From a virus: a stretch of 34,551 nucleotides of DNA. Under the pieces are notes generated by a model. It was not told the origin of the DNA, did no database searches, and was given only the letters and a program-made list of their open reading frames with translations. The position numbers were made by a program, and so were the translations under genes. Below are positions 10,416-34,551 of the stretch, piece by piece (the first letter of the stretch is position 1; each line of letters begins with the position of its first letter). The stretch is taken from positions 1-34,551 of IMG/VR virus record IMGVR_UViG_3300007603_000010, one strand, 5' to 3'.

Positions 10416-10431
10416 GCAATATGTCGAAAGG

Positions 10432-10516
10432 CAGAGGGGGTGGGATTTGAACCCACGGTGGGTTTCCCCACGCCAGTTTTCAAGACTGGAGCAATAAACC
10501 TCTCTGCCACCCCTCT
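10432..10516 (-). tRNA. tRNA-Ser(TGA)
   Basis: An 85-base cloverleaf with 7-bp acceptor AGAGGGG/CCCCTCT, a long variable arm, and loop CTTGAAA with anticodon TGA (serine, UCA codons). The T arm contains GGTTCAAAT. CCA is not encoded. It is the last of the tRNA array and lies directly upstream of the late-operon promoter. Confidence 0.92.
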
Positions 10517-10521
10517 AAAGG

Positions 10522-10594
10522 TGGGCGTGAAGGGAATCGAACCCTCGACTTAAGCCTTATAAAGACTCCACTCTAACCGCTGAGTTACACGCCC
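10522..10594 (-). tRNA. tRNA-Ile(TAT)
   Basis: A 73-base cloverleaf with acceptor GGGCGTG/CACGCCC, D stem ACTC/GAGT, anticodon loop TTTATAA giving TAT, and T loop TTCGATT. TAT would read the rare isoleucine codon AUA directly, avoiding the need for a lysidine-modified CAU tRNA. The anticodon stem (GAGTC/GGCTT) contains two G-T pairs. Confidence 0.85.
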
Positions 10595-10599
10595 GAAAG

Positions 10600-10672
10600 T
10601 ACGGCAAGCGGGGGTCGAACCCGCAACATCCTGCTTGGAAAGCAGACACTCTGCCAATTGAGTTACTGCCGT
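10600..10672 (-). tRNA. tRNA-Gly(TCC)
   Basis: A 73-base cloverleaf with acceptor ACGGCAG/TTGCCGT, anticodon loop TTTCCAA (TCC, reading GGA and GGG), T loop TTCGACC and discriminator A. Only five bases separate it from the tRNA-Ile gene, so the array is probably cut from one precursor. Confidence 0.9.
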
Positions 10673-10677
10673 GAAGG

Positions 10678-10750
10678 TGGGACTGACTGGACTTGAACCA
10701 GCAACAAATCGCTTAAAAGGCGACTACTCTAACCATTGAGTTACAATCCC
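10678..10750 (-). tRNA. tRNA-Lys(TTT)
   Basis: A 73-base cloverleaf with acceptor GGGATTG/CAGTCCC (one T-G pair), anticodon loop CTTTTAA giving TTT for lysine AAA/AAG, T loop TTCAAGT and discriminator A. CCA is not encoded. Confidence 0.92.
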
Positions 10751-10755
10751 TAAAG

Positions 10756-10826
10756 AACCCTGACAGGGATTTGAACCCCGACAAGGAGTACCAAAAACTC
10801 CTGTGCTACCGTTACACCATCAGGGT
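10756..10826 (-). tRNA. tRNA-Gln(TTG)
   Basis: A 71-base cloverleaf with acceptor ACCCTGA/TCAGGGT, D arm GTGT/GCAC, anticodon stem GGAGT/ACTCC around loop TTTTGGT (TTG, glutamine CAA/CAG), and T loop TTCAAAT. The discriminator base is T, whereas bacterial tRNA-Gln usually has G. Confidence 0.88.
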
Positions 10827-10830
10827 AGAA

Positions 10831-10896
10831 GGACGCATAAGAGGAACTTTAACCTCTTTCCTCCGATAAACGGAATTCAACTTAAACTAATGCGTC
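10831..10896 (-). tRNA. Degenerate 65-base tRNA-like element, apparent anticodon TTA
   Basis: The element has a perfect 7-bp acceptor (GACGCAT/ATGCGTC) and sits in a normal slot of the array. The D arm is weak (GTTT/GAAT with wobble pairs and a 5-base loop), the anticodon arm is TTCC/GGAG closing loop GTTTATC, and the T arm is AAGAGG/CCTCTT with an 8-base loop lacking TTCRA. It resembles mitochondrial-type reduced tRNAs. Read as a 7-base loop, positions 34-36 are TTA, which would decode the UAA stop. It may instead be a decaying tRNA. Confidence 0.45.
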
Positions 10897-10900
10897 AAAA

Positions 10901-10972
10901 TCGACCCACTAGGAATCGAACCTAGATGACCCGCTTAGAAGGCGGGTGTTCTATCCGTTGAACTATAGGTCG
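10901..10972 (-). tRNA. tRNA-Arg(TCT)
   Basis: A 72-base cloverleaf with acceptor CGACCTA/TGGGTCG, D stem GTTC/GAAC, anticodon loop CTTCTAA (TCT, arginine AGA/AGG), T arm CTAGG/CCTAG with loop TTCGATT, and discriminator A. AGA is often rare in bacterial hosts and commonly supplied by phage tRNAs. Confidence 0.92.
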
Positions 10973-10979
10973 TAAAAGG

Positions 10980-11094
10980 GCGGGGGAGGGGAGTCTAACC
11001 CCTCGTACTATATTCAGAACTTCCTATGACCGTGTTTTAAACCATTGAACCATTGGTTCTGCTAATAATGTACTCGTAACAAAAACGACCCCGC
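10980..11094 (-). ncRNA. 115-base tRNA-like structured RNA in the tRNA array
   Basis: The minus strand folds by eye into a cloverleaf-like shape. GCGGGG at the 5' end pairs with CCCCGC at the 3' end. TCGT/ACGA forms a D-like hairpin. A long imperfect central arm pairs GTAC...CAGAAC with GTTCTG...GTAC. GAGGGG/CCCCTC closes a 7-base TTAGACT loop like a T arm. It lies between intact tRNA-Arg and tRNA-Thr genes. No canonical tRNA fits it: the central arm is far too long and the T loop lacks TTC. It could be an intron-bearing, decayed or repurposed tRNA. Confidence 0.45.
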
Positions 11095-11100
11095 AAAGTA

Positions 11101-11172
11101 AGCCTTGTGTAGGATTTGAACCTACGACCTTCTGTTTACAAAACAGACGCACTACCGCTGTGCTAACAAGGC
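11101..11172 (-). tRNA. tRNA-Thr(TGT)
   Basis: A 72-base cloverleaf with acceptor GCCTTGT/ACAAGGC, D arm GCAC/GTGC, anticodon stem TCTGT/ACAGA with loop TTTGTAA (TGT, threonine ACA), T arm GTAGG/CCTAC with TTCAAAT loop, and discriminator T. It is the first transcribed tRNA of the array. Confidence 0.92.
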
Positions 11173-12275: not shown

Positions 12276-13130
12276 TTATGCCGTGACCTCCGTTTCTGGT
12301 TCGGTGACTGCTACGCCCTTGAACTTCGTCCAGCGTTTGAACGCTTCGCTGGCGGCTTTCTGGATTAGCGTCTTGTCGTTGGAGAGCACCTTGAGCCAGT
12401 TGCCAAGGTAGGCACTAGAGTTATCGAACACGGTGGTAGCGAGCAGACCAGTATCGTTCAGGCAGATGCTGGAGAACAGTTCTGCGACCAGTTCTTCCTT
12501 AGCGTATTCCTTTGAGCCGAAGCCGTCAGTCGAGTGTGTGCCACGCTCCTTGAGCGAGTGACCGATTTCGTGGAACAGCGTTGCGTAGTATTGCTCAACG
12601 CTCTTGAACGATTCCTTCCGTGGCATTTCAATCGTGTGGAAGATTGGAGAGTAGGAAGCGGATGTGCCACCGTGCGTCACGCCTACCGTGTTCAGAGCCG
12701 CCAGTTTTTCAGCCGCTTCGATTGGGGTGAACACGATTTGCTTGTTCGCTCGCTTGAAGTCAGGGAGGTTGCACTTGTTCACGGGGAAGACCGTGTAGTA
12801 GCGAGCGAGCAGGAAGGTGTCAGCAGAGCCGTTGACCTTCGTCTTTTTCTTGTCTTCGACCTTAGCGAAGTAGGTGATGGGCAGACCTTTCGTTCCCGCT
12901 TCCAGCGTACCACCAGCCGCCTTGATTTGGTTGAAGGTCAGGTAGTAGTCGTCAGAACCCCAGAAGGCGAGGGTGAAGGCGTTCACCCCAGAGTAGGGCT
13001 TGCGGCTCACGCCATTTTGAGGGGAGACGGATGCCCAAGGCTTCTGCCAAGGTGCGACTCCGTTCTGGAGGCTGATGATGAAACGGTCAGCGATTACATC
13101 GGCTACCGTGATTTTGGTGGGCTGGTTCAT
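12276..13130 (-). CDS. ardC: ArdC-type antirestriction protein
   Basis: The ATG at 13130 (MNQPTKITVADVIADRFI) is preferred over one 42 bases upstream because it follows the A/C-rich leader shared by neighbouring genes. The 284-residue protein has the two-domain ArdC plan. The N-terminal ssDNA-binding domain has GVAPWQKPWAS and SRKPYSGVNAF (about residues 25-50). A C-terminal zinc metallopeptidase-like domain has LFHEIGHSLKE and the third-ligand segment AKEELVAELFSS. ArdC proteins bind entering ssDNA and counter restriction. A GTCG/CGAC hairpin lies 21 bases before the start and a near-perfect 10-base inverted repeat at 13177-13198 may be its operator. Confidence 0.87.
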   Translation of the reverse strand: MNQPTKITVADVIADRFIISLQNGVAPWQKPWASVSPQNGVSRKPYSGVNAFTLAFWGSDDYYLTFNQIKAAGGTLEAGTKGLPITYFAKVEDKKKTKVNGSADTFLLARYYTVFPVNKCNLPDFKRANKQIVFTPIEAAEKLAALNTVGVTHGGTSASYSPIFHTIEMPRKESFKSVEQYYATLFHEIGHSLKERGTHSTDGFGSKEYAKEELVAELFSSICLNDTGLLATTVFDNSSAYLGNWLKVLSNDKTLIQKAASEAFKRWTKFKGVAVTEPETEVTA

Positions 13131-13151
13131 TTGGTTTTTGGTTTTGTAGGT

Positions 13152-13164
13152 GTCGTCAGGCGAC
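13152..13164 (-). promoter_or_regulatory. 5' leader hairpin of the ArdC gene
   Basis: GTCG/CGAC closes a 5-base loop and is followed by a 21-base unpaired A/C-rich linker ending ACCAAAAACCAA before the ATG at 13130. The same hairpin-plus-linker plan occurs before the genes at 14633 and 15219. Confidence 0.4.
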
Positions 13165-13176
13165 TCACACACCCTA

Positions 13177-18108: not shown

Positions 18109-18936
18109 ATGAGCAACACCATCCAAATCCGAAAGGGCATTGACCCGTCCTTTGTCCCTAACATCGTTGATTCCGATTATCGGAAAGCAACTGGCTTGAG
18201 CAAGTCTATGCTCAGTCACTTCCTCAAGTCTCCCGCTCACTACCTCGCACATTGCGACCAGATGAGCGAGCCTACTGCCGCTATGCAGTTCGGCACGGCT
18301 TATGATGCTGAGATTCTTCAGCAGAAGCCCAGCGACTTCTATGCCGTGATGCCAGATGTGGACGGCAGGACTAAGGAGGGTAAGGCGGTCAAGGAGCAGT
18401 TCAAGATTGATGCGGCTGGTAAGGCTGTTATCTCGCCCAAGGAAGCAGAGATGATTCCGCTGATGAAGAAAGCCCTGTACGAGCACCCTGTTGCTAACCG
18501 TCTTCTCCGTACATTGACGCACAAGCAGGTCGCTTGCTTTGGCACATATCAGGACTCAAAAGACAAGCAAGTTCGCTTGAAGGGCTTGCTAGACGGCTAC
18601 AACGAAGCCGAGGGTATTATCGTAGACCTCAAGACGGCAGAGGATGCTTCTCCTGAAGGCTTCCGTAAGGCAATCTGGAAGTATAAGTACGCCTATCAGG
18701 ATATCCAATATCGCTGGCTCTTAACCAATGCTGGTAAGCCTGTCAATGACTTCATCTTCATCGTTCAGGAAAAAGAGCCTCCCTTTGCGGTTGGTTGCTA
18801 CTCCATCAGCGTTGATGACCTAGCCTTGACCTACCAGTCTTGGGAGATGGCTATGATTCGATTCGGTCATTGCCAGAAGAGCGGACAGTACCCCGCTTAC
18901 GCTGACGAGGTCGTGAACCTGAAACTAACCAAGTGA
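18109..18936 (+). CDS. PD-(D/E)XK exonuclease, exodeoxyribonuclease VIII-like
   Basis: The 275-residue protein begins MSNTIQIRKG from the preferred ATG at 18109 (an in-frame ATG at 18088 is the alternative). It contains SKSMLSHFLKSPAHYLAH (family N-terminal motif), MQFGTAYDAEIL, KGLLDGY then IIVDLKTAED (the D and DxK catalytic residues), and YAYQDIQYRW (the QxxxY motif). It belongs to the PDDEXK-like nucleases that pair with annealing proteins. The ERF protein about 2 kb downstream is its likely partner, giving a 5'-3' end-resection and annealing system. It overlaps the initiator gene by GTGA. Confidence 0.85.
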   Translation: MSNTIQIRKGIDPSFVPNIVDSDYRKATGLSKSMLSHFLKSPAHYLAHCDQMSEPTAAMQFGTAYDAEILQQKPSDFYAVMPDVDGRTKEGKAVKEQFKIDAAGKAVISPKEAEMIPLMKKALYEHPVANRLLRTLTHKQVACFGTYQDSKDKQVRLKGLLDGYNEAEGIIVDLKTAEDASPEGFRKAIWKYKYAYQDIQYRWLLTNAGKPVNDFIFIVQEKEPPFAVGCYSISVDDLALTYQSWEMAMIRFGHCQKSGQYPAYADEVVNLKLTK

Positions 18937-19628
18937 GCGAGCCTAAGTTCACGGGGATTTGGATTCCCGCCATCGTCCTGACCTATCCCATCAGCATCAC
19001 CGCTAAGGTGTGCTTTGGGGTGGTCGATGGGCTGGACAACGAGGACGGATGCTTCGCATCCAATGCGTACCTCCAGAATCACCTTCAACTGGAAAAGCGT
19101 CAACTTCAGAACATCCTAAAGGAACTGGATGACGCTAAACTCATTGTCCGTCAAGAGGTTGCAGGACGCAGAATTATCAGGACTGTTAGTAAGGTTGCTT
19201 TAGTAAAAGCCCGAACTGACGCACAGGTCACCCGCTCAGAGGGGTGCAATCCATTGCACGGGGGGGTGCAAAATAATGCACGGGGGGGATGCAATAAATT
19301 GCACCCATATAGTAAAGATGATAATAAAGAGGATAAAGATACAAAGGATTCTGCTCCTTGGTCATCTCCTTTACCCTTTGAATCAGAAGAGTTCTCCAAT
19401 GCTTGGATGTCTTGGATTGCTTACCGAAAGGAAATCAAGAAGCCCATCAAGGAGAGCACGATGAAGGCTCAATGGAAGGAGTTCGCACTATGGGGTGAGC
19501 AGAAGTCCATTATCTCAATTGAGATGTCTATTAAGAACGGCTGGCAGGGTCTCTTTGAACCTGCTAGGTCTCAAAGTGGAAAAGGTAACACAAAACCATT
19601 GACAGCAAGCGACCACGAAGCATTCTGA
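18933..19628 (+). CDS. Winged-helix replication initiator (lambda O-like organisation)
   Basis: A 231-residue protein starting with GTG at 18933, overlapping the exonuclease stop as GTGA. Residues about 20-85 form a winged helix (SNAYLQNHLQLEKRQLQNIL, then KELDDAKLIVRQEVAGRRI), as in phage replication initiators. A flexible Gly/Asn/His- and Asp/Lys-rich linker (about 100-145) is encoded by the DNA iterons at 19241-19306. The C-terminal domain (NAWMSWIAYRKEIKKPIKES) resembles DnaD/loader-interacting helical tails. The DnaC-like loader lies just downstream, so the pair parallels lambda O and P. The name is based on architecture and context, not sequence identity to O. Confidence 0.78.
   Translation: MSEPKFTGIWIPAIVLTYPISITAKVCFGVVDGLDNEDGCFASNAYLQNHLQLEKRQLQNILKELDDAKLIVRQEVAGRRIIRTVSKVALVKARTDAQVTRSEGCNPLHGGVQNNARGGCNKLHPYSKDDNKEDKDTKDSAPWSSPLPFESEEFSNAWMSWIAYRKEIKKPIKESTMKAQWKEFALWGEQKSIISIEMSIKNGWQGLFEPARSQSGKGNTKPLTASDHEAF
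19241..19346. other. Probable intragenic replication origin (iterons plus A-rich tract)
   Basis: Three palindromic 14-mers lie at 19245-19258 (TGCAATCCATTGCA), 19267-19280 (TGCAAAATAATGCA) and 19290-19303 (TGCAATAAATTGCA), each within a G-rich frame and spaced by 22 and 23 bases. They are followed by about 40 bases of A-rich sequence (19307-19346), a typical unwinding element. The array is inside the linker of the initiator gene, as in lambda gene O. Confidence 0.78.
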
Positions 19629-19633
19629 TTCTA

Positions 19634-19969
19634 ATGAGAAACCTAAATAAGCCACCTCGCTACAATGTAGCCAGCATCCAAGCCCAGCAGACGCTAGGCG
19701 GTGATGTGATGCAGTCGGACGGGGAAGGACAGTATGTCGAGTTCCGTGATTACGCTTGGTTGCTCACGGAGAAGCAACGCCTTGATAATAATTGTGATTA
19801 CCTTGACCAGAAACTAGACGAGGAAATTGAAAAGTCTGCTATGCTCTGCGGACAGGTCGAGCGGCTGACCAAGGCGGGGGATGAGATGGCGTTAAACCTT
19901 ACTCACATTGGATGGAACATCTGCGTTGAAGCGTGGAACGCCGCCAAGGAGGGCAAGCAGTCCAAATGA
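19634..19969 (+). CDS. Unknown coiled-coil protein between initiator and loader, 111 aa
   Basis: A 111-residue protein with a Pro-containing N-terminus (RNLNKPPRYNVASIQAQQ) and a helical, heptad-patterned body (LTEKQRLDNNCDYLDQKLDE, then EIEKSAMLCGQVERLTKAG). Its ATG is five bases after the initiator stop, and its stop overlaps the loader ATG as ATGA. The location in the replication block suggests an accessory role, but nothing specific is recognised. Confidence 0.66.
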   Translation: MRNLNKPPRYNVASIQAQQTLGGDVMQSDGEGQYVEFRDYAWLLTEKQRLDNNCDYLDQKLDEEIEKSAMLCGQVERLTKAGDEMALNLTHIGWNICVEAWNAAKEGKQSK

Positions 19970-20643
19970 GCGACATCGCCTGTCATTGTGGTCGTAGGGG
20001 TGCGTTGTTTGCTAAGAACGACAGCACTCATAAACTGGTTCGCTGGCATCATTGCCGTGAGCACCTAGATGCCGTCCGTGTAGCCGATGCTGGATTGGTT
20101 GATTCTATTATCCCTCCATCTATGCCAGAAATCTTTAGGGATACTGACATCGCTCGCCTTCACCCCAACATCCAGAAGGCTCTGGATTGGAAGCCCAGCG
20201 GTGATGTCTCTGGTCTCCTTCTGCACGGCACTACGGGCATTGGGAAGACCCGTGGTATCTGGGCTATCATCTGCCGTATGTGGGCTGAGGAAGCCCTAAA
20301 GGACAAGCAATTGAACTTCCAGTTCTTGACTATGCGTAAACTGGAGACCACCATTGAAATGGGTTTTAAAGACCAGAAGCACGGCACGGCTCTAGACCAG
20401 TTAATCACGATGCCGTTCTTAATCTTAGATGACTTTGGTAAGGAGCGGCTTACCCAGCGTATGGCTTCTGACCTGTTCGCTATCATTGACGAGCGTAGCA
20501 CGGCTCGTAGGGCTACCATTGTTAGCACGAACTTCAACGGTTCTACTCTATTAGAGCGTTTTGACGCTAGGGACAAGGAGACTGGCGTTGCCCTTATCCG
20601 AAGACTAAAGGACTACTACCAGATGGTAGGGGCAGGGTCATAA
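19966..20643 (+). CDS. DnaC-like AAA+ helicase loader
   Basis: The ATG at 19966 (MSDIACHCGRRGALF) is chosen because it overlaps the preceding stop as ATGA. The 225-residue protein has a short N-terminal Cys/His segment (CHCGRRG and HHCREH, possibly zinc-binding), Walker A LLHGTTGIGKTR, Walker B FLILDDFGKE, sensor-like TIVSTNFNGS and ARDKETGVALIRRLKDYY with an Arg-finger-like RR. This is the DnaC/IstB class that loads replicative helicase. With the winged-helix initiator it forms the initiation pair. No phage helicase is in the window, so it probably loads the host DnaB. Confidence 0.86.
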   Translation: MSDIACHCGRRGALFAKNDSTHKLVRWHHCREHLDAVRVADAGLVDSIIPPSMPEIFRDTDIARLHPNIQKALDWKPSGDVSGLLLHGTTGIGKTRGIWAIICRMWAEEALKDKQLNFQFLTMRKLETTIEMGFKDQKHGTALDQLITMPFLILDDFGKERLTQRMASDLFAIIDERSTARRATIVSTNFNGSTLLERFDARDKETGVALIRRLKDYYQMVGAGS

Positions 20644-25035: not shown

Positions 25036-28000
25036 TCAGTTCCTCAATGCTCGTTTTTTGGCTTCTTGTTCAGAAGCGTAGATGCCGACTTGAACTTTCT
25101 GGGAGTTATAGACCTTGAACTTGTCTCCTTGAATCATAATGATGTATCCGTTGATAGCCTGTAATACCTTTCCATTAGGTGCGACTTTCTCCGCAAAATT
25201 TTCTTTTACGCTGTAATTAGCGTTCATATCCCTATAATCTACCTGACCAACATCCTTGGTTCTGGTTGCACCGTAAGGGTTGCTGTTCATACCAAGCAGG
25301 TTTGTCTGCACATTACTTGGAAGGTCTGAAAGTTTACGCTCACCAGAGTTAGCAGAGATAGATGTTTCGTGCAGGTCTAGGACATTGATAGGTCTCTTGA
25401 GCAACAGAATCTCAGGCTTCTGCCCGTTCTTTTGAACAATACCTGTGTTATAAGACCTGTGACCAGAGTCCATAGATTCTACAAAGTCATTGAATTTTAT
25501 AATGCCGTAGACATCTCCAGACTTAAGTCCTTTTGTAAGGCTATCTGTAAGCGTGTTGCCCATTGTGCTCTTGAGGTTAGCAAGCGTGAACGCTCCTGCC
25601 GTTTTAGAGCCATCCCATTCAGGGAAGAACCGCATAACTTCCTGCTTCTTCTTATCGCTAAGACCTTTCATAACTCTGTCCCACACAGCACCCATAAAGT
25701 CGTCTATCATAGGTGCTCTTGTGCCAAAGTTCTGAATGCTACTGTCTTCAAGGGTAAGCATCACGCTGGCAATCAACTCATCATAATTCATCTTGTTGTC
25801 CTTAACAATCTTCCTGAGTGCATCAGTCTGCTTGTTCTCAATTACAACTTCCCCAGTTTTTTTGTCCTTATGCGTGGTAACTTTTTCAACGGCTTCAGCC
25901 ATCGCAATGCGAAGGTCTTTTTCGGAGACAATCTTACCACGCTTAAAGATGTCAAAAACATTGTAGTAGAACTCAGAGCCTTGAACTGACGCTCTAGCCT
26001 TCTCGTAAGATGTGAAGGTCAGAGGCATAATTGCTGTAACACCTTTGCCCGCATCTTTGTTTGCCTGTACAGCGTTGTTAGTTAGGTTGACAAACCCTTC
26101 ACCTTGCGATGCCCAAGCCGCATTGCTTCCTCTTTCAGCCTGAAGCATAGGGTAAGGAAGACCTCCAGCACCCTCAGCAACCACCCTGCCTTCGGCTGTG
26201 GTGATGTCTGTACCCGTAAGGGTATCAGGAGCGTGGCTGATTGCCCTAAGCCCTCTGAGGTCATTTAAATCCTCAGCGGTGGCGTACCTGACAAAGCCTC
26301 CAGCCGATGCCATAGCCTTCTTGAACCAAGGCATATCCTCAGACTTACGGAGGACAAGCATATCCCTTTCGTTCAGGGAGTACCATTTGTCAGATTGAAT
26401 CTTGCTCCAAGCGTACACCCAGAGTTCGTGACCCTTATGCTTCTCGATATTGACCGTGCCGTCAGCCTCAGTATTATGAATCTCCATCTCAGGATACTTC
26501 AGTTTATTGAAGTTATCCATAGTGGCTGGCATATACTGCCCCGTGTATTGGTCTAGGAGTTTAGAGTAGTTCTCTCCGAATGTCCTGACCTGTGACTTCA
26601 GCGGAAGACCTAGGTCGTTTTCAATACGCTGGAAGAAGTCCGTAGCACCCATTGCTCTGGCTCGTTCAGCGGCTTCAGAGTACAGCAGGTGCTGGTAATT
26701 CTTACCTCGGTATGCAGGTTCAACGCTGACGCTAGGGTCTGAGAAAATCTTTCTGCCATCCTTTGCTCCAATCTGAGTCTTCCAAGTGATGTGACCAACC
26801 TCTTTACCAGCCTCAGTAATCTGAAGGTAGTGGTTGTGTGTGCTCTTACCCGCAACCCTTCCAGCCATCACAGCCATACCTCTGCTTGCACTAGCCTTTT
26901 CGGTTTCAAATGTAAGTTTAAGTTCTTTTGACATCTCAGGGTTCTCAGCCGCATAGCGTCCAATGAATCCCTTCTTCCATTTCAGGCTTTTTTGGTTATA
27001 GGTTTGACCGCCCTTGTCGTTTTCGTTGACAGAAAAATGAATAGGAAGTTGGTCTTTTATACCATAGCCTCTTTGAGCCTTAACTTTTTGACTAGCACCA
27101 AACAGATAAGCGTCTATGTGGTCAGCGGGAACGCCAAGTGAACTAGCAACAGTATCTTTATAGAAATTAGCATCAGACATATCAGAGATAGGCTGTTTAT
27201 AATCACTAGAAATAGACAGTTTACCTTTCTCAAGTAAATTTCCTTTCTCATCGTACTTTGGCTTTTCATATCTGCCGTAGATATTAGGTCTATCGTCATC
27301 ATATTTAAATTTATCAAACCATTCGCTATGCGTAAAATCTGGTCTGTCCAATTCCCACATTGGGTTTTTCATTCTAACACCTTCGTTGTCTTTCCAATAC
27401 CAAAGACCGCTGTTCTTTGCTTCCCAAATATTATCTGCTTTTGTTTTTCCTGTTTGCGGGTAGTGACCAATGTCTTCCCATCCAACATTGTCTGGATTTG
27501 TTTTGCTACCCCTAGCGTCTGGATTTCCAGTAATTTCATCATTTCCAACGCTAACTCTGCGAACTAATAATCCTTGTTCATCTTTTGATTCAAAGATGTT
27601 TTTCTTTGGTTTGTAGTAATCATCTCCTCCTTGGTAGTCGCTAGGGCTGTAGTATTTTGTGTCCCTGCTTTCTCTTTCAGCCCCAGTATTGGAGCGTCTA
27701 GCGTCCGTGTCCGATACCTTACGCTTATTGCCCATTACTTCTTGAACACGCTTGGCAAGTTGTTTTCTTGTATTCCTGATATTGTTCAATTCGTAATTAT
27801 AAGTGTAGTAGTCTCCTTGCTTCTGAAGTTTTTTTGTAGCCTCTGTCAGACTTGTTCTTCCTTCTACGACATCGCTATAGATTTGCTTTGAAACGCTGTC
27901 GCTTCTAGAAGCCTTTTCTAAGGCAATCATCATATCGTCTTTGCTGGCTGATGTAAATACATCGAGGTTGTCAGCAATGTCTTTTACGCTTTGAGGCATC

Positions 28001-31000
28001 TCAACCTCGTGCCAAGATTTGACTGAACCTCTTAGTTCACTAAGCCAAGAATTAAGTTCAGTTAAAGAAGAACTGCTTTGAATTCTGCCTTTAAGTTCTT
28101 TCTCCTCTGGGCTGTAGTAAGCGTTCCTATCAAGAGTACTTCTGGTTACATCGTAGTAACCGCCATTACCAAGGCTCTCTGCGTTCCCAATGGTACGCAT
28201 ACGGGCGTGGTAAGGTCTGTTCTCTGGGTCAATGATAACTCCATCAAGATACTTAACGCCCTGAGAGCGTAGTCTTTCTGCGGCTTCAGACAGCAAAACA
28301 TTATTAAGTTTCTTGCCACGCATTGACTCAGCAACGCCTGTGCTTTCTACGGATGCCTTGTTTCCGTCTACATTAATGTGTATGTTAGCAATGAAGTTAG
28401 GCTTTCCGCTTTTGTGAAACCCTTGTTTAACCTCAAGAGTAAATCCGTATTGAGGGTCACCAACAGAACGATGTGTGTTTTTGAATTCAACTGTCATTCC
28501 CTTTGGAAGCGTATCCTTGTTGTCGTTAAAATACTTCCCGATAAATGTTCTTTGAAATGCGTGACCAAAAGGGTCGTAGCGTCTTCCACCACGGCTATCC
28601 GTTTCAGCAACGCTATAGGATGTCATAGCCTTTCCGCTCATAAAGTCGGCTTTTATTTTGTCGTTAAGTACGATGTGGTTTCCTCTGGCAAGACCCATAG
28701 CGGTGATGATTTCATCACGGGACATTATTTGTTTTCCGTTTGCTTGAGCCTGAGCATCCATAATGCTATTTTGCAGTTCCTCAAAGGCTTTGCTTTCAGC
28801 CATTTTAACATTCACAGCCTCAACATAAGCGTCATAGAACTCCTTAGGAATTTCTCCATTTTTTACTCTTTTATCTAGTGCTTTAGTTGTCGTATTGACC
28901 AGTTGCTTAAAATCTTCTTGTCCTTGTCTTGGAGTGGTGACTTCGTGAATGGCTCTGGAAAGACTCCCTGAGATGTACTCGACATTTCTAGCGTCAAGTT
29001 TTCCAGCCTTGCCTTGTTCATACATATCAAGAACAAGTTTATTGGCATCAAACGAACCGTCAGATGCATTAGACAAAGTCTCAAACAGTTTTTTAATTTC
29101 AGGGTTTCCAGCGACATCAAGACCCTTAAGGAATCTTTCTGTAGAGCCGTACTTCTGAATCTTGATTCCGTATTTGGCAAGGAAACCGCCCCAGATTTCA
29201 GGAAGTGCTTTTCCATACAATCCTGTACGAGAAATATATTTCATCTGAGACACAGTAGGAGCATCGTCAGGATGAGTAAGGACAAGGGTGTTTATTCCCT
29301 TTCTGATAGATTCTACAATCAGGGATTTTAAAGCAACCAAGGTTCTTTCGTTGATGACTTCAAGAGGGTAGGCTTTTTTGTTCTTCATAGCCTCTTCGTG
29401 CTTAATGAACTCTCTGTCAATTGCTTCTATATTGCGACTTAGTGTGTGAGGAGATGCGGCTTCAAGTTCAACTAAATCAACGGTTTTATTGGTGTTTCCT
29501 TCATTCTTTCTTTTCTCAAGAATTCGTTTCTTGATTTCACCGTACACTTCCGCTTGCTGTTTTGCTGTTCTGTAAATCAAAGAATCTTTTTCTACAAACT
29601 CTTTGTTAACGGCATCTAGAACATTCCATAAAGCACGGCTATGACCTCCGTAAAGTGTATTATTGGGGTCTATCAAAGAACCGTGATAAGCCCTGTAAGC
29701 ATCATAGGTGTCAAAAATATGAAGTCTTCCTTGGCTTGCATAATTAGGAACAGGATTTGGGTTAGACCTTTTGACATCGGCGGTTTCCCACGCAGTTTCC
29801 GCAATAGCAGAAGATGTGTCAGTATAAATTCTGCTTATGAATTCAGCAATTGTTCTAGGACCACCAATTGAAGCAGGATTAAATCTCTGATTAGCATAGA
29901 ACACCTTACCATCGCTCATCTGAAGTCTTAATCCAGCATCTTGGGCGTTATTGAAATCGCTGTATCCGTCTTGATAATATTTAATGTTGTGGTCTACAAA
30001 TTGGTCCGCTATGTTTTTTAGAATGTCAGGTTGTTTTAGAATCTCAAGCAGGTGGGTACGAGTTACATTTTCGTGAGATGCGTCTTTAGGTGTATGCGGA
30101 CGAAGTCCAGTTGGGTCTCTTCTAAGACCAATGTCTGCATTACTTATGGCAAACATTTGCATATATTGGTTTACAATAAGGTCTGGATTCCTTTCAATAA
30201 ATTTAGCAACTTCAAGTGCAATTTTTCTTGCTTCTTTTTCTTTTGCTGTAACCTTTTTAGATGTAGTGTTTCTTCCTTGTCCAGTTCTTTGGTTGTCAGA
30301 AAGATAACTAATCAGCGGAATTGAAGTGCCAAAGCCCTCGTCATAAAATGCACCATTTTTAAGGGCTTCAAGAACTCGTTCTCTTTCCTTAAGGTCTGGG
30401 TATTTGTTTACAAGTTCTTGAAGCCCTTGAAGTTTTTTAACTAAATCTGTTCTTTGTTCTGTCAGAATTTTTTGAGATTCTTTATTCAAAGCACCTTGAG
30501 GAAGAATGCTTTCACTATTGTTAGATTGAATTTCCTCTATGTATAGGTATTTGTTTCCTTCGGAATCGAATCTTACTGTTGTTCTTGTGTGAACAACTAC
30601 ATCAGGTCCGTAGTGACCTCTTACTCCGTGATGATATTGAGACTGTTCAATTCTAATAGGCGTTTCAGTATACTCGCCTTTAGTTCCACCAAATACATAA
30701 TTCTCAGTCTGCAATCCTCCAAGTTCTTTAGCACCAGTATCAATCCTAAGCGACAAGCCATTGTTCTTAAGAAAATCTGTGATTTCCTTTGGGTCTAATA
30801 CGGACATATTTTCTCCCTTAGGTGTAGCAATTGGAGAATGTTCCTGTCCTCTCGGAAGAATGCCACCAGTAGCCGCATCGTACCTGCGTGTTAATCTGTA
30901 TGTAGGTTGAATCTTAGACTCAAGCCAATCAACAAATCCAACAGCCTCAGCCTCAGCCCATAGACGCTCTCCAGTTCTAGAGCCGTACTGAAGCAATCGC

Positions 31001-34000
31001 TTACGCAGTTGCTGAGGAGTCATATTAGGTGTATCTCTAAGCATCACCTGAATTCTGTCATTAAGAGCAGAACGGAAGGTCATAGGATAAATCTTATCCC
31101 ATCCCTTCATATGAGCATCTATGCCACCAATACGCATACTCATCCAAGCCTGACCGCCAGAATTAGAGCCAAAAGAACCGTCAAGTCTTGCAGGGATTCC
31201 AGCGTGTTGAATTAGGGTTACCGAATCTTCTGAAAACAAATCTGCCTTAGAATCAATCTTTTCCAAAATCTTTGGAATCAATTCCATTTTATTTCTGATT
31301 CCGTTGAGAAATCTAGGGTCTACTTGAGGATTATTAATCTTTGCGTTGTATTCTTCAGTAAGACTTCTTAGCATCTCAACATATTCAGCACGAAACTTTC
31401 CTGCAAATCCTCTTGCGTGAAGTTCTTCTGTTGCTTTTTGTCTTCCGTACTCTTCTCTAGGGCTGAAGTGAACACCACGGTCATAAGCCGCCTTAACATC
31501 CTGAGCAACTTCGTGCATAGCCTGTTGTTGCTTCTGGAGTTTCTGCTTACCAGCAAGCATAGCCTGTTCTGGCGTTGCGTATGAACCAATACGCTCACCT
31601 CGTCTGTCGTAGGCAACGACCTCGCCATCAAGAATCTGATGGAATCTGTAGCCAGTTTTGTGCTCCCAATGCTTACCATTAGGGGCTTCCCTGTAGGTCA
31701 TCTCAGCAGGTGAGAAGTTTCTGCCGATGTCTGGGATTGCATTCTTGGGGTCAAAGCCAAGAACCTTTTCTCCAGTTAGTCGGATGTCCTGCATTCTTCC
31801 AATTGAAAGCATCGTGTAGGCGTTCAAAGCATCGTAGTAGATTTCGCCAATAGGATGATTAACATAGACATCGCCAGCACCAAGGGGAACGCCAGCAACT
31901 TGATGCATAACATCTCTTCTCTTTCCTCCATTGCCGTCTCCGTTGTCCAACAGGATAGATGACTCAACCTTTCCACCAGCAACATCTTTACCCATATTGG
32001 TTATATACTTGATGTAGTCGGCTTCAAACAGCATAACATCTCCGTTCCATAGGTCTCTTACCGAAGGATTAGACCACATATTTTTCGCCCTCTCGCTATT
32101 AACCCTGAGGTCAAGGGTGTGTGCAACCATTGAGACCTTACCATTCTTGCCAACCTTTATGTCAACGCTAAGAAGAACACCAAGTCTGTTTGTGAAAGGA
32201 ACTTCGTCTCCAGTAATTCTTGGTACATTTGGTCCAGTTTCTACCGTGTGCGTAGCACCCCAGTATCCAGACTCAAAAACTGATTTGTCTGGATTCATAG
32301 CAAGAGCCTGAAGAGTTTTAATCTTCTGACCCATAGCAGGTGAGATATGCCCAGCACGAATAAGTCCAGCAACATCCTTGTCAGACAAGTGACCAACTAG
32401 ATTGCCAGCACCGTCTGTTTGTCTTGCTGGGTCAATGGCTAGAAGTTCAGCGTGAACAGCCTTGCCTAGTTGCAAGTCGTTAGAGAGACTTGTTTTCTTT
32501 CTAGGGTCTCTAGCCCCTCTTGCTCTACCAAGGTCGTCAAGACCTTTTCTGAGGATAAGTTCTCCTCTGGCTTTATCAGACATCAAGGTCAGGTCAATTC
32601 GTCCAGTTCTGTTTTGATTCTGAGTCATCTTCAAGAAGTCAGAAATCATATAGTCAATAGAGCCTACCCTGATTCGCTTCCCGCTACTGTCTCTGAAGGA
32701 TTCAGACAATGACCTGCCTTGTTTAAACGAAAACCGTGGGTCAAGGGCAGAGCGTTTGTTTTCAAAGTGGTCAATAAATCTATTAACCGTTCTGTCCATT
32801 ACTCCACGAAGACCTTCGTACTTACCAGCAAAGAATAAGAAGTCGGGTGGTTTAGCACCAACGAGTTCTTGGAAATAATATGCACCGAACTCTTCAGTAA
32901 GGTGTTCAAGTAAAGGCTTTTTGCTATTTACCGTAGCCTCAGTCAATGTGGCTTGACCTGTCTTTTCGTACTCATCAACAGCCCTATCAGCAAGGTCTGA
33001 CAAACGCTTTGCTTCGGCGGCGTGTCCAGTAGGGTCAATGCTTTTATCAACCTTGTTGTATGTACGCTTCATATACTCCCTAAAGAAAGCCTTACTTTCA
33101 TCTGGGTTGATAGAACCGCCTTCAAGGAGTTTACCTGTTGCGTCTCTTACGCCAAGAAGGTCGTGCTTGAGGTTCTCAATAAAGTGCGGAGTCATAACCG
33201 CCTTACGAAGAATTAAGTGAAGCATTTCGTGTGGAACTGTTCCAGCACGGAATCCAGATTTAGCACCCTTTGAAAGTTTAGTGGTGTTGATGTGCATTGT
33301 TACCTGACCATCAGCGGCTGTTTCCATCACAACGCCTTCCATATTGATGTGCTCAAACTGAGAAAGTTGTTTTGGTTTTGTAGGGTCTGTTTTATGTATA
33401 CCAGTTTTCCTATCAAATCCGTTATCATCTAAGAACTTAGTGTGGTTAGCGTCATTTCTGAATTGAAATCTAGAGTCAGGAGCAAGACCGTCAAAGGCGA
33501 CAACAATGCCATCCATCATCGGCTTAGTTCCTGTCATCTCTCCAATCTTTCTGAATAATTCATAGGCTTGAGCAGTATGATGTTTCCCTGTTTCCTTAGC
33601 ACCCTCAATGGCGTACTTAGCCATTATGTCTGCTCGTTCAATGGTCTTAGCACCTGTGGCTCTAGAGAGAAGCCCACCAGCAAGTCCACCAACGCCACCA
33701 AGAGCAATGCCAGCCCCAGCACCCTGCCACATACCTTCAAGACCGTTATTGCCGTAGCCAAGCCCGCCACCAATGACAGCACCGTAAGCCGCACCTTTTG
33801 TTATGTCAGCAGACAATGAAAGAAGCGGGTCAGCGGCATTAATTACCTTAAGCAAGTTCTGTGCAGAAGGGGAAAGAATAGCCTTGTCAGCCTCAAGAGC
33901 CGCCTTAGCATAAGAAAGGAATCCTCTTGGACCTCTTTGTATTTGACCACCAATAGCACTAAGTGCTTGACCAACACCGTGTGCAACACCTCCAGCAACA

Positions 34001-34551
34001 TAAGCATTGGAGATGTCAGAAACAATAGGAACAGAGTGTCCAGCAAGAGATGCCGCACTAGTTCCTAACGAACCCATACGGACGGTTGTTGCAATTTCTT
34101 TAGCAGACATACCAGTCACGGTTTCTGCCGCCAATGAACCTGCGTTGATTCCGTAATCAATAACTCCTCTTGTTGCACCGCCAATTAATTCAATTGGTTT
34201 TCCAATGCCATACTTAAGAGCACCACCAATTAGTCTGTTTTGGATAGCCCCTGCACGGGCGGCAAGCATAGCGGCTTTCTCTCCCATACCAATAGCACGA
34301 AGCCCAAGTCCACCAATCTTGGCAAAAGGAATAAACAACGAGGGGTCAGCAATATAACTCATTGCCTGAGTCATTTCGTGGTCGATGTAATCTTTGTTGA
34401 CTAACAAGGTTTTCTTTCCTTCTGCTAAGTCAATTGAATCTAAATTAAACTCTCTTGCTTCTTGATACTGCCTGTATCCCTCGTCTGAATCTTCGCCTGT
34501 TATAGCGGCTTTAAATCTAAAGAACTTGCTTGTAGGGTCTGATGATTGAGC
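25036..34551 (-). CDS. Giant multidomain virion-type (polyvalent) protein, partial
   Basis: The frame is open at the right edge and supplies 3,171 residues; its N-terminus is outside the window. Visible parts: Gly/Ala-rich hydrophobic helices (about 33,650-34,370, for example GAAYGAVIGGGLGYG), likely membrane-active; a HExxH site (PHEMLHLI, 33,217-33,231) with a downstream EHLTEEFGAYYF segment as possible third zinc ligand; an EEIQSN-containing domain (about 30,500-30,650); a TLVALKSLIVESIRKG-type domain (about 29,160-29,350); and two GNAT-like modules (about 28,170-28,625 and 26,570-27,036). Its C-terminal module (about 25,036-25,225) duplicates one near 31,535-31,720. Giant proteins of this class are packaged in the virion and injected. 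No RNA polymerase motif was seen. Length and position, just before holin and spanin, fit a late virion gene. Confidence 0.85.
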   Translation of the reverse strand, partial: AQSSDPTSKFFRFKAAITGEDSDEGYRQYQEAREFNLDSIDLAEGKKTLLVNKDYIDHEMTQAMSYIADPSLFIPFAKIGGLGLRAIGMGEKAAMLAARAGAIQNRLIGGALKYGIGKPIELIGGATRGVIDYGINAGSLAAETVTGMSAKEIATTVRMGSLGTSAASLAGHSVPIVSDISNAYVAGGVAHGVGQALSAIGGQIQRGPRGFLSYAKAALEADKAILSPSAQNLLKVINAADPLLSLSADITKGAAYGAVIGGGLGYGNNGLEGMWQGAGAGIALGGVGGLAGGLLSRATGAKTIERADIMAKYAIEGAKETGKHHTAQAYELFRKIGEMTGTKPMMDGIVVAFDGLAPDSRFQFRNDANHTKFLDDNGFDRKTGIHKTDPTKPKQLSQFEHINMEGVVMETAADGQVTMHINTTKLSKGAKSGFRAGTVPHEMLHLILRKAVMTPHFIENLKHDLLGVRDATGKLLEGGSINPDESKAFFREYMKRTYNKVDKSIDPTGHAAEAKRLSDLADRAVDEYEKTGQATLTEATVNSKKPLLEHLTEEFGAYYFQELVGAKPPDFLFFAGKYEGLRGVMDRTVNRFIDHFENKRSALDPRFSFKQGRSLSESFRDSSGKRIRVGSIDYMISDFLKMTQNQNRTGRIDLTLMSDKARGELILRKGLDDLGRARGARDPRKKTSLSNDLQLGKAVHAELLAIDPARQTDGAGNLVGHLSDKDVAGLIRAGHISPAMGQKIKTLQALAMNPDKSVFESGYWGATHTVETGPNVPRITGDEVPFTNRLGVLLSVDIKVGKNGKVSMVAHTLDLRVNSERAKNMWSNPSVRDLWNGDVMLFEADYIKYITNMGKDVAGGKVESSILLDNGDGNGGKRRDVMHQVAGVPLGAGDVYVNHPIGEIYYDALNAYTMLSIGRMQDIRLTGEKVLGFDPKNAIPDIGRNFSPAEMTYREAPNGKHWEHKTGYRFHQILDGEVVAYDRRGERIGSYATPEQAMLAGKQKLQKQQQAMHEVAQDVKAAYDRGVHFSPREEYGRQKATEELHARGFAGKFRAEYVEMLRSLTEEYNAKINNPQVDPRFLNGIRNKMELIPKILEKIDSKADLFSEDSVTLIQHAGIPARLDGSFGSNSGGQAWMSMRIGGIDAHMKGWDKIYPMTFRSALNDRIQVMLRDTPNMTPQQLRKRLLQYGSRTGERLWAEAEAVGFVDWLESKIQPTYRLTRRYDAATGGILPRGQEHSPIATPKGENMSVLDPKEITDFLKNNGLSLRIDTGAKELGGLQTENYVFGGTKGEYTETPIRIEQSQYHHGVRGHYGPDVVVHTRTTVRFDSEGNKYLYIEEIQSNNSESILPQGALNKESQKILTEQRTDLVKKLQGLQELVNKYPDLKERERVLEALKNGAFYDEGFGTSIPLISYLSDNQRTGQGRNTTSKKVTAKEKEARKIALEVAKFIERNPDLIVNQYMQMFAISNADIGLRRDPTGLRPHTPKDASHENVTRTHLLEILKQPDILKNIADQFVDHNIKYYQDGYSDFNNAQDAGLRLQMSDGKVFYANQRFNPASIGGPRTIAEFISRIYTDTSSAIAETAWETADVKRSNPNPVPNYASQGRLHIFDTYDAYRAYHGSLIDPNNTLYGGHSRALWNVLDAVNKEFVEKDSLIYRTAKQQAEVYGEIKKRILEKRKNEGNTNKTVDLVELEAASPHTLSRNIEAIDREFIKHEEAMKNKKAYPLEVINERTLVALKSLIVESIRKGINTLVLTHPDDAPTVSQMKYISRTGLYGKALPEIWGGFLAKYGIKIQKYGSTERFLKGLDVAGNPEIKKLFETLSNASDGSFDANKLVLDMYEQGKAGKLDARNVEYISGSLSRAIHEVTTPRQGQEDFKQLVNTTTKALDKRVKNGEIPKEFYDAYVEAVNVKMAESKAFEELQNSIMDAQAQANGKQIMSRDEIITAMGLARGNHIVLNDKIKADFMSGKAMTSYSVAETDSRGGRRYDPFGHAFQRTFIGKYFNDNKDTLPKGMTVEFKNTHRSVGDPQYGFTLEVKQGFHKSGKPNFIANIHINVDGNKASVESTGVAESMRGKKLNNVLLSEAAERLRSQGVKYLDGVIIDPENRPYHARMRTIGNAESLGNGGYYDVTRSTLDRNAYYSPEEKELKGRIQSSSSLTELNSWLSELRGSVKSWHEVEMPQSVKDIADNLDVFTSASKDDMMIALEKASRSDSVSKQIYSDVVEGRTSLTEATKKLQKQGDYYTYNYELNNIRNTRKQLAKRVQEVMGNKRKVSDTDARRSNTGAERESRDTKYYSPSDYQGGDDYYKPKKNIFESKDEQGLLVRRVSVGNDEITGNPDARGSKTNPDNVGWEDIGHYPQTGKTKADNIWEAKNSGLWYWKDNEGVRMKNPMWELDRPDFTHSEWFDKFKYDDDRPNIYGRYEKPKYDEKGNLLEKGKLSISSDYKQPISDMSDANFYKDTVASSLGVPADHIDAYLFGASQKVKAQRGYGIKDQLPIHFSVNENDKGGQTYNQKSLKWKKGFIGRYAAENPEMSKELKLTFETEKASASRGMAVMAGRVAGKSTHNHYLQITEAGKEVGHITWKTQIGAKDGRKIFSDPSVSVEPAYRGKNYQHLLYSEAAERARAMGATDFFQRIENDLGLPLKSQVRTFGENYSKLLDQYTGQYMPATMDNFNKLKYPEMEIHNTEADGTVNIEKHKGHELWVYAWSKIQSDKWYSLNERDMLVLRKSEDMPWFKKAMASAGGFVRYATAEDLNDLRGLRAISHAPDTLTGTDITTAEGRVVAEGAGGLPYPMLQAERGSNAAWASQGEGFVNLTNNAVQANKDAGKGVTAIMPLTFTSYEKARASVQGSEFYYNVFDIFKRGKIVSEKDLRIAMAEAVEKVTTHKDKKTGEVVIENKQTDALRKIVKDNKMNYDELIASVMLTLEDSSIQNFGTRAPMIDDFMGAVWDRVMKGLSDKKKQEVMRFFPEWDGSKTAGAFTLANLKSTMGNTLTDSLTKGLKSGDVYGIIKFNDFVESMDSGHRSYNTGIVQKNGQKPEILLLKRPINVLDLHETSISANSGERKLSDLPSNVQTNLLGMNSNPYGATRTKDVGQVDYRDMNANYSVKENFAEKVAPNGKVLQAINGYIIMIQGDKFKVYNSQKVQVGIYASEQEAKKRALRN
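26570..27036 (-). repeat. Internal duplicated module, copy B, of the giant protein
   Basis: Encodes HFSVNENDKGGQTY, then GFIGRYAAENPEM, then an acetyltransferase-like VEPAYRGKNYQHLLYSEAAE and SQVRTFGENYS. It aligns through its length with copy A. The RGK-x-x-x-x-x-L-L-x-SEAAER segment resembles the acetyl-CoA binding turn of the GNAT fold. Confidence 0.65.
28170..28625 (-). repeat. Internal duplicated module, copy A, of the giant protein
   Basis: Encodes SYSVAETDSRGGRRY, then TFIGKYFNDNKDT, then GVAESMRGKKLNNVLLSEAA and ARMRTIGNAES. The same landmarks occur in the same order in copy B, about 1.6 kb further along the gene. The duplication is protein-level; the DNA has diverged. Confidence 0.65.

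Follow-up and report, generated by a model that had tools for sequence, protein, structure and literature searches.

We believe that positions 19245-19343 of the virus record IMGVR_UViG_3300007603_000010 are very probably a phage replication origin of the lambda type, situated inside the gene for the initiator; this reading comes from the sequence and from its comparison with relatives. The window, i.e., the whole stretch of DNA that was analysed, is this record at its full length of 34,551 bases. Where an origin lies inside a gene, a short piece of DNA holds both the protein and its target, and the case would bear on how origins can be found directly from the sequences of uncultivated phages. 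The features are collected in Table 1.

Table 1. Features of the putative origin, its gene and the following genes (window coordinates)
Feature	Positions	Strand	Sequence	Basis or remark
O-like replication initiator gene, 231 aa, GTG start	18933-19628	+		PHROG 678 1.4e-21
Winged-helix DNA-binding domain, residues 13-98	18969-19226	+		AlphaFold model, fold matches
Gln59 codon, in helix 55-67	19107-19109	+		Covaries with half-site base 1
Iteron 1	19245-19258	.	TGCAATCCATTGCA	Sequence inspection
G-run between iterons 1 and 2	19260-19266	+		Sequence; spacer runs general in relatives
Iteron 2	19267-19280	.	TGCAAAATAATGCA	Sequence inspection
G-run between iterons 2 and 3	19282-19288	+		Sequence; spacer runs general in relatives
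Iteron 3	19290-19303	.	TGCAATAAATTGCA	Sequence inspection
A-rich tract, presumed unwinding element	19304-19343	+	taCAtATAnnAaAGaagATAAnAaAGagGATAaanatAca	Sequence is the consensus in 65 genes; GAT bias
C-terminal domain, presumed partner-binding domain	19386-19628	+		Helices from residue 152; N7 O alignment
Small intervening gene, 111 aa	19634-19969	+		No convincing family match
DnaC/IstB-like helicase loader	19966-20643	+		ATG start at 19966 assumed; phrog_50 6.9e-16, IstB_IS21 2.1e-9

Array and A-rich tract in the window

The iteron unit is a 14-bp palindrome of the form 5+4+5, i.e., two 5-bp half-sites flanking a 4-bp, mostly A-rich centre. The start-to-start spacing is 22 and then 23, and the array begins 312 bp into the initiator gene, in the part coding for the linker; iterons 1 and 3 are in the same codon frame, iteron 2 in another. 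The first-pass annotation had described three 14-base palindromes at intervals of 22-23 bases in the initiator linker, and its coordinates, spacing and sequence are all correct. The window also has a G-run at 19241-19244, before iteron 1.

The pattern TGCA-N6-TGCA has three matches in the 34,551 bases, all of them in the array, with 0.85 expected; since three matches anywhere are reached by 4 of 100 dinucleotide shuffles, the bare motif count is modest evidence. The strong part of the observation is the clustering of the palindromes, not the count: a score for three like palindromes at a spacing of 19-27 equals 29/30, and the maximum in 300 dinucleotide shuffles of the gene was 25. Under synonymous-codon shuffling of the window gene with positions fixed, the maxima of 2,000 shuffles equal the observed values (14/15 pairs, 29/30 agreement), and a run of 100 shuffles never reached them; the encoded peptide explains part of the palindrome pattern in the window.

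About 40 bases of A-rich DNA had been noted after the palindromes, and they are indeed there. The stretch 19304-19350 has 72% A+T (a value matched by 1.3% of same-size stretches of the window) and 51% A (matched by 1.0%, either strand considered).

Initiator gene and its neighbours

On profile evidence the protein belongs to the O-like replication initiators. It matches PHROG 678, "replication initiation O-like", as well as other replication-initiation families; the O proteins of lambda (1.7e-35) and phage N7 (1.3e-81) also hit PHROG 678. In hhalign the C-terminal domain is aligned with the C-terminal part of N7 O (97.5%, 5.5e-12), and the comparison of the initiator with the single lambda O sequence gives a probability of 0.4% (E 0.14). 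Pfam HTH_36 is matched at 1.9e-4, below the family cut-off, and the Pfam RepA_N domain is absent among the Pfam matches of the initiator up to E 0.1.

The AlphaFold model (36-row alignment, mean pLDDT 75.3, pTM 0.42) consists of a winged-helix N-terminal domain, a low-confidence stretch at residues 99-141 and a helical C-terminal domain from residue 152. Array and A-rich tract together code for approximately residues 105-137, which fall within the low-confidence stretch, and the linker holding the array is predicted to be disordered. The best matches among solved structures are 4pql_A (Z 9.1, rmsd 2.2, 80 aligned) and 5kbj_G, a "Rep-DNA complex" (Z 8.3); we take the initiator and Rep-DNA entries of this type to be RepA_N proteins. 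Such entries (Z 9.1, 8.3, 8.2) stand barely above other winged helices, which score Z 7-8. Foldseek with the initiator model returned no match at E 0.001 or better, and a sequence search of solved structures returned nothing convincing for the initiator.

The genes upstream of the initiator are exonuclease VIII-like and endonuclease VII-like; downstream are the small gene, the DnaC/IstB-like loader and an ERF annealing protein. The placing of a DnaC-like loader as the next but one gene is borne out by the phrog_50 and IstB_IS21 matches.

A GC-skew check had been proposed. The cumulative maximum, at 20,637, is near the array; however, gene direction confounds the skew, and the classical sign of an origin would be a minimum, so the skew decides nothing. 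Direct repeats of at least 14 bases within 200 bases of each other were not found at 10.4-14.1 kb. The region so scanned contains seven tRNA genes (Ser, Ile, Gly, Lys, Gln, Arg, Thr) at 10430-11172 on the minus strand; an ArdC-like anti-restriction protein with a zincin domain (Pfam 3.1e-20, 4.5e-29; phrog_7245) is encoded at 12276-13172, also on the minus strand. A minus-strand open frame of 3,171 codons at 25036-34551 extends past the record end, and the window record has no exact terminal repeat of 10 to 200 bases.

Relatives and conservation of the array

A profile of 13 initiators (A1) gave 164 relatives among viral contigs, and the best 80 of 164 were kept. The peptide patterns behind A1 belong to the N-terminal domain, so the scan for relatives was not directly guided by the linker, although some of the 13 initiators had themselves been found with linker peptides. 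The best 80 of 164, the window's gene, one locus reached via its loader (L033, with no PHROG family match at 1e-5) and two MAG loci make 68 distinct genes. The window's gene and 64 relatives (65 genes) were anchored on one protein column after the array; L084, L120 and L122 were dropped, and near-copies of the window (L040-L045) were left out of the 65. Iteron 1 was set at the better-pairing of two offsets (22 or 23), which gives a slight bias in favour; the pitch, 22 then 23 in 27 genes and 23 then 23 in 38, follows from the anchor construction and this choice.

Absence of the repeats in close relatives had been named as an observation that would speak against an origin; the palindromes are present at the anchored place in the 65 genes. 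The mean there is 4.11 of 5 pairs, and shifting the place by between -9 and +9 gives no more than 1.87. Iteron 1 forms four or five pairs in 40/65 genes, iteron 2 in 49/65 and iteron 3 in 63/65; at least two palindromes of this quality occur in 57 of the 65, and at least three pairs in all three palindromes in just 46. Iteron 1 is degenerate (at most 2 pairs) in 17 genes, all of which are among the 26 genes with Lys59. Among 82 distinct iterons, pair 1 is paired in 58 (maximum of 48 with shuffled partners) and pair 3 in 60 (maximum of 54); judged by these counts, palindromy is maintained despite sequence change at pairs 1 and 3, the most variable ones.

The half-site consensus is GGAAA in 24 of the 65 genes, GGCAA in 16, TGCAA in 7, TGCAG in 7, GGAAG in 5, TGCGG in 4, and TGTAA and CGAAC in 1 each; half-site likeness is 0.81 within a gene versus 0.64 between genes. 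A run of at least three G or C is present in 130/130 inter-iteron spacers of these genes (at least four G in 101, at least four C in 12), and the conserved runs may be an unrecognised part of the site. A G-quadruplex formed by the spacer G-run was set aside, because some relatives have C-runs in the same spacers.

The exact pattern TGCA-N6-TGCA is confined to the array in the window and in a near-identical record of 42,856 bases (G002), though the records may be incomplete; it has no match in G003 (88,287 bases), which fits the other half-sites of G003. The pattern GGCA-N6-TGCC is confined to the array in four records (G004, G059, G060, G061), G004 having two of three copies exact.

Further afield, a search of genome contigs gave three weak relatives, two in one Puniceicoccaceae MAG and one in a Ruminococcus MAG; of 55 genomes around one of these MAGs, two gave a match at all, namely that MAG and another with a weak match. 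Searched against phage records, the initiator gave 33 weak matches, a single one of which (Pseudomonas phage Cruim01, 26% identity) covers at least 80%, the loader gave 24 and the terminase 8; a plasmid search with the initiator gave 16 partial matches.

Several loci deserve mention in their own right. L084 (on a contig shared with L010) and L278 have one visible iteron and a broken reading frame; either a deletion between the repeats truly took place, or the assembly collapsed them. The 88,287-base contig IMGVR_UViG_3300010970_000150 carries two initiator genes 43.6 kb apart (L213 and L215), whose half-site classes differ, TGTAA with Gln59 and GGAAA with Lys59; it is either two joined phages or a true two-origin element. 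Other palindromic linker arrays were seen by eye in the distant relatives L279, L282, L284, L285, L288 and L294, e.g., TGAAA..TTTCA and TGACA..TGTCG.

Of 80 loci that extend over 1.5 kb or more, six of them near-copies of the window, 78 have a loader downstream on the same strand; the two loci without it are the distant MAG loci L120 and L122. The A-rich tract, with its common consensus, follows the iterons at a fixed distance in the 65 genes. These two features weigh on a rival reading, in which the winged-helix protein uses the palindromes as operators to control its own operon and the origin lies elsewhere. Winged-helix proteins are often repressors, and many repressors are found in the structural-match list; however, the tract at its fixed distance and the downstream loader are features of an origin, the sites start well inside the gene, and the record has no exact motif copy upstream or elsewhere. 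We therefore hold the operator reading to be very improbable.

Residue 59 and base 1 of the half-site

The variable residues among positions 1-100 were screened against each of the five bases of the half-site. The top pair is residue 59 with base 1, at 0.91 of the base entropy explained; the next-best pairs have 0.85, 0.83 and 0.81, the screen being uncorrected for kinship. Base 1 is T in 19 of 20 genes with Gln59 (C in the remaining one), G in 19/19 genes with Arg59, and G in 26/26 genes with Lys59 by the consensus of six half-sites. The last figure includes two G/T ties (L099 and L101), which were counted as G in the screen and in the trees; two Gln genes have T/C ties. The rule that Arg or Lys goes with G, and Gln with a pyrimidine, is followed outright by 63/65 genes, because the two Lys genes tie between G and T. 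Counted by single half-sites, G at base 1 is found in 114/114 for Arg, 2/120 for Gln and 121/156 for Lys, so that the Lys group follows the rule less strictly. In the model, helix 55-67 contains residue 59; from its place in the winged-helix fold, this helix is presumed to be the recognition helix.

All 14 genes first seen in a later scan fit (Gln-T 9, Gln-C 3, Lys-G 1, Arg-G 1), no more than 2 of the 14 being on the G side. They were tested under the rule "G or not G", the wording "pyrimidine" having come afterwards, and L209 was dropped from this set as already seen. Among 22 loci inspected one by one, 10 could be read by eye, all with Gln at the place of residue 59 and T or C at base 1; the other 12 have no clear 5+4+5 array.

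On a tree built from the remaining columns (64 genes, without L033), each trait changes 9 times, and on well-supported branches the paired changes go the same way in 4/4 cases; supported switches are so few that significance is unreachable from them alone. With ties taken as G, residue 59 and base 1 agree in 77/77 genes. Two quick trees of these 77 genes, from which L033 and L154 were dropped and whose support is trusted less, give 6 and 6 changes with 3/3 supported pairs for the wing domain without the helix start, and 12 and 12 changes with 5/5 supported pairs for the C-terminal domain. The higher number of changes on the C-domain tree suggests that the wing domain and the array were exchanged as a block. 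Linkage through such swaps could account for part of the association, and a contact between the residue and the base is therefore a prediction, not a result. A second and weaker determinant may be residue 60, where Asn goes with A at base 5; here there are 7 and 8 changes, with about 2 of 3 supported pairs going the same way.

We lean slightly towards the view that a one-residue switch sets the identity of the origin: residue 59 would read the outermost half-site base, the half-sites would largely change together, and related phages would thereby gain mutually incompatible origins.

The same covariation bears on the proposal that another protein binds the array, for packaging, recombination or partition. 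Iteron arrays can serve partition, and recombination genes are close by; yet the array and the wing-helix domain encoded by its own gene covary in sequence, and the identified neighbours are replication as well as recombination genes. We give a site of this kind even less credence than operators.

Selection on DNA, RNA or peptide

The three copies occupy three codon frames in 38 of the 65 genes and two in 27. Broken pairs are G-U or U-G in 25/173 cases, near the 1 in 6 expected if wobble is not favoured. In view of the different frames and the lack of G-U enrichment, it is DNA, rather than peptide or RNA, that seems to be selected. The palindromes of the initiator genes have 12.3 of 15 pairs, versus an average of 8.1 of 15 in synonymous shuffles. 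Codon choice in the A-rich tract is also biased: Asp is GAT in 172/173 codons versus 190/514 elsewhere in the same genes, and in comparison with the remainder of the genes, Lys is AAA in 166/194 (versus 395/1,149), Asn is AAT in 67/98 (versus 221/583), and Glu is GAA in just 48/106 (versus 304/897).

Each palindrome could form a short stem in RNA; however, the stems of hairpins in the mRNA would be just 5 bp long, the broken pairs show the proportion of G-U given above, and a residue of a DNA-binding domain covaries with the base, so that we see only a remote chance that the repeats are mRNA hairpins. Practically no chance is left for a mere coding feature, i.e., a repetitive peptide linker: synonymous shuffles do retain, on average, the 8.1 pairs given above, but translation in two or three frames turns the same DNA into different peptides, the linker is modelled at low confidence, as though disordered, and the tract uses GAT for nearly every Asp.

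Discussion

For the origin reading, we propose the following course of events. A dimer of the winged-helix domain would bind to each palindrome, with a subunit on either 5-bp half-site; three such dimers, at a pitch of 22-23 bp (about two helical turns), would form a nucleoprotein complex; the complex would melt the adjoining A-rich tract; and the C-terminal domain, directly or via the DnaC-like loader, would bring the replicative helicase.

Within the family, the target has been altered several times while its place stayed the same, which makes a natural series. A residue-to-base rule would bear on how initiators acquire a new origin specificity and on whether related phages can replicate together in one cell. 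In a literature search, mostly of open-access papers, we recognised neither a residue-level iteron code nor a description of origins inside genes for this phage group, and we do not claim that none has been published.

Comparison with known systems

In lambda, the iterons lie within the initiator gene O and are followed by an A-rich tract, with gene P next (NC_001416; PMC7466680). The annotated iteron starts in NC_001416 are spaced by 20, 24 and 23, and direct comparison presents the iterons as inverted half-sites around an A-rich centre. The likeness thus extends to inverted-repeat iterons within the initiator gene at a spacing of about two turns, an A-rich tract after them and a replication gene downstream. 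Lambda has four iterons with the half-site TCCCTC, whereas the window has three 5+4+5 palindromes separated by GC-run spacers; P is directly next, whereas the loader of the window is DnaC/IstB-like and one gene further on; and lambda O is linked to the window initiator via PHROG 678 only, not by a pairwise profile. The claim of the first-pass annotation that the plan is that of lambda agrees with PHROG 678, the N7 O alignment, the relatives and the 78/80 loaders. Its remark that the iteron sequence looks unrelated to that of lambda agrees with the comparison, in which the sequence is unlike; the plan of half-site, A-rich centre and half-site is alike.

Repeats followed by AT-rich sequence were seen by eye in the linkers of 6/7 other phage replication-initiation genes (Cruim01, GJ44, N7, Skulduggery, LspM-01 and HU1), the exception being LE1 Orf5. 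In SPP1, as PMC6316719 describes it, oriL in gene 38 has direct repeats and an AT-rich element, the loader gp39 takes part, and a second origin, oriR, is about 13 kb away. The likeness to the window is in the repeats and AT-rich element inside the initiator gene and in the involvement of a loader; the difference is in the two origins, while the window, which may be an incomplete record, has no second exact motif copy.

The RepA_N protein of pSK41, according to PMC5703833, has a winged-helix N-terminal domain that recognises four Rep boxes situated midway along the gene for the protein; the origin codes for the linker, and the C-terminal domain binds primase. The winged-helix N-terminal domain and a linker coded by the origin (here the putative one) are common to both, and the fold matches of the window initiator include initiator/Rep-DNA entries; pSK41 is, however, a plasmid RepA_N system, and the window initiator has no Pfam RepA_N match. 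For the PLE satellite RepA, PMC8263062 reports that the N-terminal domain and the origin covary, that a cognate pair is needed and that modules are swapped, with the origin described in a noncoding region. Covariation in PLE is thus shown for modules, whereas here one residue is set against one base; an exchange of the wing domain and the array as a block would have parallels in PLE RepA (PMC8263062) and in pPR9 (PMC5703833).

Since lambda, the six phage genes of seven, SPP1 and pSK41 follow the same plan, an origin of the in-gene kind is already known. The present case adds the family, the 5+4+5 unit with its GC-run spacers, and the residue-base rule.
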